DNA from: Phycisphaerae bacterium
GTDB taxonomy: Bacteria; Planctomycetota; Phycisphaerae; Tepidisphaerales; Tepidisphaeraceae
Assembly: GCA_025924315.1 (NCBI GenBank)
Contig: JAICIO010000026.1
Coordinates: 1 to 62,713, forward strand
Length of the DNA: 62,713 bases
Direction of reading: 5' to 3'
In this document: one piece after another, positions 25,275 to 32,061 of the stretch
Position numbering within the stretch: the first letter of the stretch is position 1
How the letters are laid out: the number at the start of each line of letters is the position of its first letter
The notes under the pieces: generated by a model
Databases searched by the model: none
The model's input: the letters and a program-made list of their open reading frames with translations, nothing else
Told to the model about the DNA's origin: nothing
Program-made: the position numbers and the translations under genes

Positions 25275-25553
25275 TTAGAACAACTCGATTCGCGAATCCT
25301 CGGCGAGGACAACCACCGCGCGCTTCCAATCCGGCGTCGTGCCGATCTTAAAACGCGACCGGCGCGGCTTGCCCTTGCGGGTCATCGTGCGCACGTCCGC
25401 GACCTTCACGTTGTAGAGCTTCTCAACCGCATCCTTGATCTGATGCTTGTTCGCTTCCGGATGGACGTGAAACGCGTACGCGTTGCGCGTGGTCTGCTGA
25501 TGCGTGCTCTTTTCCGTGATCAGCGGTTTGATGATGACGTTGACGTTGTCCAT
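25275..25553 (-). CDS. rplW: 50S ribosomal protein L23
   Basis: The 92-residue protein begins MDNVNVIIKPLITEKST and has FHVHPEANKHQIKDAVEKL, typical of L23 at the tunnel exit, a docking site for SRP and trigger factor. The frame opens further upstream through the REPIN, but 25553 is the expected start. Confidence 0.95.
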   Translation of the reverse strand: MDNVNVIIKPLITEKSTHQQTTRNAYAFHVHPEANKHQIKDAVEKLYNVKVADVRTMTRKGKPRRSRFKIGTTPDWKRAVVVLAEDSRIELF

Positions 25554-25564
25554 TGTTCGTTCCT

Positions 25565-25617
25565 GTAGGGTGTGCTTCAGCACACCATTCGGACTGGTGT
25601 GCTGAAGCACACCTTAC
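25565..25617. repeat. REPIN-like inverted pair, GTAG/CTAC type, copy 2
   Basis: GTAG is followed by GGTGTGCTTCAGCACACC, then a 9-nt loop and GGTGTGCTGAAGCACACC with TTAC. It is the same family as 5581, 31152 and 36505, with the stem bases changed in pairs. It fills the rplW-rplD spacer. Confidence 0.85.
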
Positions 25618-25625
25618 AAATCATT

Positions 25626-31090: not shown

Positions 31091-31151
31091 AAATGCTCCT
31101 TCGAGAGACGAACGAATCCTGTAAGAAACGAGTTGGACTATTGAGTCTTAT

Positions 31152-31210
31152 GTAGGGTGTGCTTCAGCACACCGTCTTTCGTCGCAATGGTGTGCTGAAG
31201 CACACCCTAC
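31152..31210. repeat. REPIN-like inverted pair, GTAG/CTAC type, copy 3
   Basis: GTAG, GGTGTGCTTCAGCACACC, a 15-nt loop, GGTGTGCTGAAGCACACC, CTAC. Arms are perfect inverted repeats. It lies in the untranslated region upstream of fusA. Confidence 0.88.
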
Positions 31211-31216
31211 AAAACG

Positions 31217-31561: not shown

Positions 31562-31600
31562 AAATGAAAAAGAAAGCCCGGGTCTTTTGAACCCGGGCTT
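31562..31600 (-). terminator. Intrinsic terminator of small transcript 2
   Basis: On the minus strand AAGCCCGGGT, loop TCAAAAG, ACCCGGGCTT, then TCTTTTTCATTTT: a 10-bp perfect stem and a T-rich tract. Confidence 0.88.
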
Positions 31601-31920
31601 CGTGCAGACTAGCTGCTGTTGAGCTACCGAAGCAGCTGCGTGTATCGCCGGAATCGCACCGGCGAAAGCTGCTTACAGCAGCCCACACTTACAGTCAGAA
31701 TTGGTCACGGATCACCTCCATTTCGATATCCTGAGTCCCCGTACACGGGGGATCGAAGGACAGGCCTCGCCCAACCGCCGCGAGAACTCTTCAAGGGTGA
31801 CTGCCAGCCGATTTGGGAACGACTCACGTCGTGACCGGGACATCGACTTTAGTATGACCCTCTACTGTCCCGCCGCCGGGCTCTTCCTCCCGGAAACGCC
31901 TTCCCGGGAACAAATCGAAC
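31566..31920 (-). ncRNA. Candidate structured small transcript 2 with embedded mini-ORF
   Basis: About 355 nt from a sigma70-like promoter to a strong terminator. Stems seen in order: CCCGGGAA/TTTCCGGG, CGGGACA/TGTCCCG, CCCCGT/ACGGGG, and a long 3' structure in which ACAGCAGC pairs with GCTGCTGT outside AAGCAGCT/AGCTGCTT and CGCCGG/CCGGCG. Between them is an 11-aa frame (31673-31708) with an extended ribosome-binding site. It could be a leader, a dual-function RNA or a minimal peptide gene. No known RNA family was recognised. Confidence 0.55.
31673..31708 (-). CDS. Possible 11-residue peptide with extended Shine-Dalgarno
   Basis: GTG start, peptide MTNSDCKCGLL, TAA stop. The preceding GGAGGTGATCC (31719-31709) is complementary over 11 nt to the 3' end of bacterial 16S rRNA (GGATCACCTCC) and the GGAGG core is 6 nt from the start codon. 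A possible 43-codon frame (31712-31843) ends with a TGA that overlaps this site. Such short frames arise by chance, but this ribosome site is exceptional. Function unknown. Confidence 0.4.
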   Translation of the reverse strand: MTNSDCKCGLL

Positions 31921-31926
31921 GCTCGA

Positions 31927-31956
31927 ATGATACGCAACACAGCGAAAAAAGATCAA
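31927..31956 (-). promoter_or_regulatory. Sigma70-like promoter of small transcript 2
   Basis: TTGATC (31956-31951) and TATCAT (31932-31927) on the minus strand, 18 bp apart, giving a start near 31920. Confidence 0.58.
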
Positions 31957-31984: not shown

Positions 31985-32047
31985 CTCTGGCCGCTTGCGG
32001 CTTAGCAGAAGGCCATGAACTGTTCGCTAAGCCGCAAGCGGCCAGAG
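31985..32047. repeat. 22-bp perfect inverted repeat, REPIN-like
   Basis: The arm CTCTGGCCGCTTGCGGCTTA (plus GC) at 31985-32006 is repeated inverted at 32026-32047. Each arm contains the inner palindrome GCCGCTTGCGGC. It lies just after the anti-sigma gene and may also end its transcript. Confidence 0.8.
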
Positions 32048-32061
32048 AACAAAAAACACCT

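Follow-up and report, generated by a model that had tools for sequence, protein, structure and literature searches.

A predicted RNA gene between a sigma-factor locus and fusA

The window, a stretch of 62,713 nucleotides from a Phycisphaerae bacterium, contains a predicted RNA gene on the minus strand (31571..31920), its ends placed by a promoter and a terminator. An anti-sigma/sigma-factor gene pair lies on one side; on the other are fusA and then the S10 operon. The promoter (31927..31956, minus strand) has a -35 box TTGATC at 31956-31951, an 18-bp spacer, and a -10 box TATCAT at 31932-31927. The intrinsic terminator (31573..31601, minus strand) is followed by a T run to about 31566. An earlier note had described both elements, and both are present, with 12 pairs in the terminator stem rather than the 10 bp given there. 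When the 355-nt RNA was folded and compared with shuffles, its z score was -4.07. A scan of the region with Rfam 15 returned zero families above threshold. Two known RNAs were rejected as candidates: neither the tmRNA model (RF00023) nor the RNase P RNA model (RF00010) matched in the window, and the genome has its tmRNA at C59 and its RNase P RNA at C41. We also noticed that a near-perfect inverted repeat, TCTGGCCGCTTGCGGCTTAGC, separates the anti-sigma gene from the RNA promoter (31985-32048) and that a dispersed palindrome, GTAGGGTGTGCTTCAGCACACC, lies upstream of fusA (31143-31212). Apparent further copies of this palindrome lie between ribosomal protein genes, where they were noticed in translations near 25550-25620.

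The RNA includes an extended Shine-Dalgarno sequence, GGAGGTGATCC (31709..31719, minus strand), complementary at 11 of 11 positions to the 16S tail of the same genome. Only four copies of GGAGGTGATCC occur in the 6.57-Mb genome. One is antisense to the genome's own 16S 3' end; therefore, the tail reads ...GGATCACCTCCTTTCT, and the 11/11 match is confirmed. Two others have no start codon at the right spacing, leaving the RNA locus as the sole occurrence with a start codon at ribosome-site distance. A model search found no full 16S gene in this metagenome-assembled genome (MAG), and only the 3' end fragment was recovered. As the earlier note had claimed, the match stands beside a GTG that starts the frame MTNSDCKCGLL, a mini-ORF of 11 codons running from GTG at 31708 to TAA at 31673 (31673..31708, minus strand). 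The same note had read a 43-codon frame ending in the ribosome site as a sign of translational coupling. This frame exists and ends in the TGA of GGAGGTGA. Coupling is not supported, because the matching frames of relatives, open for 10-83 codons, are unrelated in sequence and lack a shared start.

Relatives within the Planctomycetota

Of 61 sampled genomes, 14 had a BLASTN match to the RNA; these 14 represent 11 genera and come nearly all from the window's family. Their copies share a conserved 5' block and a conserved 3' block with a variable middle. Their layout within the family is P1, P2, GGAGGTGAT, the frame, GGGCTGC..., a T-loop-like arm, and the terminator. Boxes of the TATAAT, TATCAT, or TATTAT type at -10 precede the same RNA in relatives from the window's family. 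Many relatives from the class have TTGAC...TA...T promoter patterns about 180-250 nt upstream of the ribosome site, and relatives have a terminator at the equivalent position 3' of the RNA. GGAGGTGAT is nearly invariant, and the 16S-complementary stretch reaches up to 16 nt (AAAGGAGGTGATCCAG). Where extra bases follow the ribosome site on its 3' side, the start codon moves with them, so that spacing is compensated. The ribosome site, frame, stems, upstream promoter, and terminator thus all recur. The discrete transcript that the earlier note had predicted around an exceptional ribosome site and a tiny frame therefore survives the comparative tests by which that note would have refuted it.

Model R1, built on the 3' domain, matched in 76 of 397 genomes of the class. 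The rebuilt model R2 gave matches in 85 of 248 sampled class genomes, always to a single copy; the lone double match was one gene divided by a contig break. Many of the sampled genomes are MAGs, and E-values are rough. Across the phylum, R2 matched in 36 of 392 genomes, about two-thirds of them outside the class, where scores were mostly 25-38 bits. We read the matches from other classes singly. Apart from G442, which has no start codon and is a doubtful member, each showed AAGGAGGTGATCC or a close variant with a start codon, a short frame, and a hairpin, and most also had a terminator. Exact-pattern matches in named genomes came from Phycisphaerales, Phycisphaerae, or Planctomycetota assemblies, and the diagnostic pattern of the family had zero matches in viral contigs. 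Three genomes of family f4 were overlooked by R2 and recovered through the Rfam model CC2171 (see below), and class-wide absences may reflect insensitivity of the model. These three genomes (L123, L126, and L127) have a long variant of the RNA, with a frame of 18-19 codons and a common SQD....SND..LR. A literature search for a description of the RNA found none. This appears to be an undescribed RNA family, present in several classes of Planctomycetota and absent from the Rfam library.

Translation and folding of the RNA

To follow the mini-ORF through 72 copies, the frame was defined by the first ATG, GTG, or TTG 3' of the ribosome site. This frame ended after 9-15 codons in 70 of 72 copies, compared with 0 of 72 and 5 of 72 for the other two frames. 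The exceptions were L008, in which a 19-nt hairpin insertion displaces the stop, and L085, in which the frame runs for 17 codons. Overall, known copies have frames of 9-19 codons. Start codons were GTG (52), ATG (14), and TTG (6), and stop codons were TAG (38), TAA (21), and TGA (13). Two copies (L012 and L013) have three-base deletions that preserve the frame. As expected of a dual-function (translated) sRNA, this free-standing structured RNA has a conserved translatable frame. Purifying selection on the peptide, as would mark a small-protein gene, was not found: four sets of equal-length frames had pN/pS values of 0.81, 0.84, 0.97, and 1.3, which rest on few sites and small counts. Therefore, the amino acids appear to be free to drift, and the earlier suggestion of a functional peptide as the conserved product was not upheld. 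Nor was a proposed Cys-x-Cys sensor, because most of the class and phylum lack the motif. Class-wide, the only recurring residues are GL or WL, and they recur because the last codons form strand a of a stem.

That stem belongs to a nested hairpin at the 3' end (all structural elements are on the minus strand). Its outer stem pairs strand a, GGGCTGCTG (31676..31684), which is also the last three sense codons, with strand d, CGGTAGCTC (31621..31629). Its inner stem pairs strand b, GCAGC (31668..31672), with strand c, GCTGC (31632..31636). The stop codon sits in the internal loop between the two stems. In family f1, a T-loop-like hairpin, TCGCCGG-TGCGATT-CCGGCGA (31645..31665), is inserted atop the inner stem, and six of its seven pairs show compensatory changes there. 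The 5' part of the RNA contains the P1 hairpin TCCCGGG-AAGGCGTT-TCCGGGA (31888..31909), in which AAGGCGTT is constant in family f1 and the stem is variable. It also contains P2, in which GCCCGGC (31881-31875) of the 5' strand AGCCCGGCGG (31873..31882) pairs with the 3' strand GTTGGGC (31769..31775). A 7-bp long-range helix joins GCAGTCA (31798..31804) to TGACTGT inside the ORF (31691..31697). This helix is confined to family f1. It is perfect, as GCAGTCA or ACAGTCA with TGACTGT, in all nine f1 copies that have this 5' subdomain, and its covariation support consists of one double change (ACAGTCT/AGACTGT). We sought a class-wide partner for TGACTGT and did not find one.

Covariation of the nested a-d/b-c hairpin was extensive. 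Among 50 class sequences, there were 124 two-sided compensatory cells, compared with 31.6 +/- 5.0 after shuffling, and sliding the partners gave at most 20 two-sided changes. The result was replicated with 18 sequences excluded from model building, which came from other families and nearly all from other classes (76 two-sided changes versus 23.7; covariation, 0.655 versus 0.179). Although A3 and A4 were aligned by fitting to the structure in the model itself, the effect size and direct reading of the pairs support the predicted hairpin. For example, L092 pairs GGGCUUCGC with GCGAAGCCC, and L089 pairs GGGCUGCAC with GUGCAGCCC. We also considered a two-state switch through local hairpins a-b and c-d, which is possible in the window's family because the segments repeat there. 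However, these hairpins are broken where a and c have diverged, whereas a-d/b-c holds. The outer and inner stems vary independently; therefore, the local hairpins are ruled out as the general fold.

Function and known systems

With a strong ribosome site followed by 9-19 codons that end in a hairpin, the RNA looks built for brief reading by a ribosome. Since conservation extends to the frame, start, and stop but not to the peptide, passage of the ribosome or its pose at the stop codon is the likely function. Judging from sequence comparisons, we put at roughly even chances the reading that this free-standing, single-copy structured RNA is a mini-mRNA in which translation itself, not the peptide, is under selection, and which probably acts in trans. 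In this RNA of about 170-370 nt, the extended Shine-Dalgarno sequence, complementary to the whole free 16S tail, would capture a 30S subunit, and initiation would follow at once. The ribosome would then enter strand a and open the outer stem. In family f1, it would also disrupt the helix that joins codons 4-6 to the 5' domain. At the stop codon, between the outer and inner stems, it would cover strands a and b. Translation by one ribosome might thus switch the RNA from a closed fold to a ribosome-opened fold, probably to open or hold a structure. The RNA would most likely be trans-acting, and how active or long-lived it is would depend on ribosome supply or on termination. More tentatively, it could be a phylum-wide trans-acting translation sensor that converts ribosome availability or release-factor activity into RNA conformation. 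In such a sensor, read by the ribosome alone, the conversion would take place as translation starts at a 16S site of full complementarity and ends within a hairpin. Conservation of start, frame, stop, and hairpin around a drifting peptide is an unusual evolutionary signature, and it offers a testable case of a small frame retained because it is translated, not because of what it encodes.

Other readings account for parts of this pattern. One is a cis-acting leader or attenuator of the downstream gene, here fusA. In its favor, fusA is found downstream of the RNA, and on its strand, in the window and in three family relatives; L079, from another family, has the same arrangement. Elsewhere, however, the downstream genes differ and are often on the opposite strand, with no common gene type on either strand, and each copy examined has a terminator 3' of the RNA. 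Since neighbors differ and lie on both strands, a general cis-leader role is excluded, and a role as a leader of fusA is very unlikely. In L079 (genome G216), as in the window's family, the RNA directly precedes fusA, and this position may be ancestral. It is unlikely, though less so, that the RNA works through its peptide of 9-19 residues, with the hairpin merely shielding the mRNA 3' end. Conservation of a translated frame would fit a peptide gene, as would a loose pattern M..C.[RK][GW]L and the motif common to the three Phycisphaerae genomes with 18-19-codon frames. The pN/pS values, the restriction of class-wide recurrence to residues encoded by strand a, and covariation indicating that the last codons are constrained as RNA argue against it. 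Without a conserved peptide or a common downstream gene, the RNA therefore does not look like a cis leader or like a peptide gene of the ordinary kind. Maximal pairing with the 16S tail might instead hold 30S subunits or slow escape from the start codon, making the RNA a trap that sequesters ribosomes, a possibility raised in the earlier note. The 11-nt complement in the window, its extension in relatives, and the near invariance of the site are all consistent with a trap, which we consider rather improbable: it would need no reading frame, yet the start and the frame are conserved, as is a stop of one of three kinds, and titration would require very high RNA abundance.

Among the closest known systems is CC2171 (Rfam RF01867), a Caulobacter sRNA also found in other alphaproteobacteria. 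Like the window RNA, it is free-standing and intergenic and has a terminator. We read copies from Methylobacterium, Azospirillum, Sphingobium, and Skermanella replicons; they have GAAAGGAGGUGAUCCAGUG and a short frame, MSHC..., of about 24-26 codons. In both RNAs, the extended ribosome site is followed by the start codon, the frame, and the terminator, and the CC2171 model matches the same RNA in G046 (37 bits, the best relative) and G042 (27 bits). Common descent of the two from one ancestral sRNA is nevertheless highly improbable. The window scored 13 bits, and every score was below the 75-bit membership threshold, compared with 68-84 bits for most of the fetched alphaproteobacterial copies. 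In the reverse search, R2 gave these copies 12-20.7 bits, barely above the 15 bits of plain antisense 16S. The CC2171 stem pairs the start of the ORF instead of its end, the peptide starts differ, and we found no shared structure beyond the 16S-complementary stretch. Because the detectable similarity is limited to that stretch and the terminator, we did not assign the window RNA to CC2171. The need to match the 16S tail may have forced the two to converge, and we regard CC2171 as a possible functional analog rather than a proven relative. One further CC2171 match (L125, at G021:C39) was antisense 16S and was discarded.

The reading that we prefer, a mini-mRNA selected for its translation, also has partial parallels elsewhere. 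Sinorhizobium rnTrpL is a leader-peptide attenuator RNA with a 14-aa frame that also acts in trans as an sRNA (PMC10117765). Such attenuators share with the window RNA a very short frame whose end overlaps an alternative RNA structure. In contrast, the window RNA has no downstream operon and no repeated sensor codons, has its own terminator, and begins translation at an extended ribosome site rather than at a leaderless AUG. Spot 42 appears in the reference list of PMC10117765 as a dual-function sRNA with a 15-aa protein. RNAs of the Spot 42 type are likewise small and structured and carry a small ORF; the window RNA differs in that conservation is highest at the ribosome site and absent from the peptide. 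tmRNA is also a structured RNA with a short internal frame read by the ribosome, whereas the window RNA initiates by a Shine-Dalgarno sequence.

In six of the CC2171 copies (L129-L133 and L136), an extended ribosome site accompanies the MSHC frame of about 24-26 codons. Therefore, CC2171 may be a translated RNA, and the same may be true of other Rfam "sRNAs" with an extended ribosome site. One of these copies (L129) lies about 1 kb upstream of a 16S gene. Two Azospirillum loci (L134 and L135) have the same AAAGGAGGTGATCCAATGTCTCAT start, followed by a frame of 57-59 codons with a signal-peptide-like N terminus (MSHGA...ADC).
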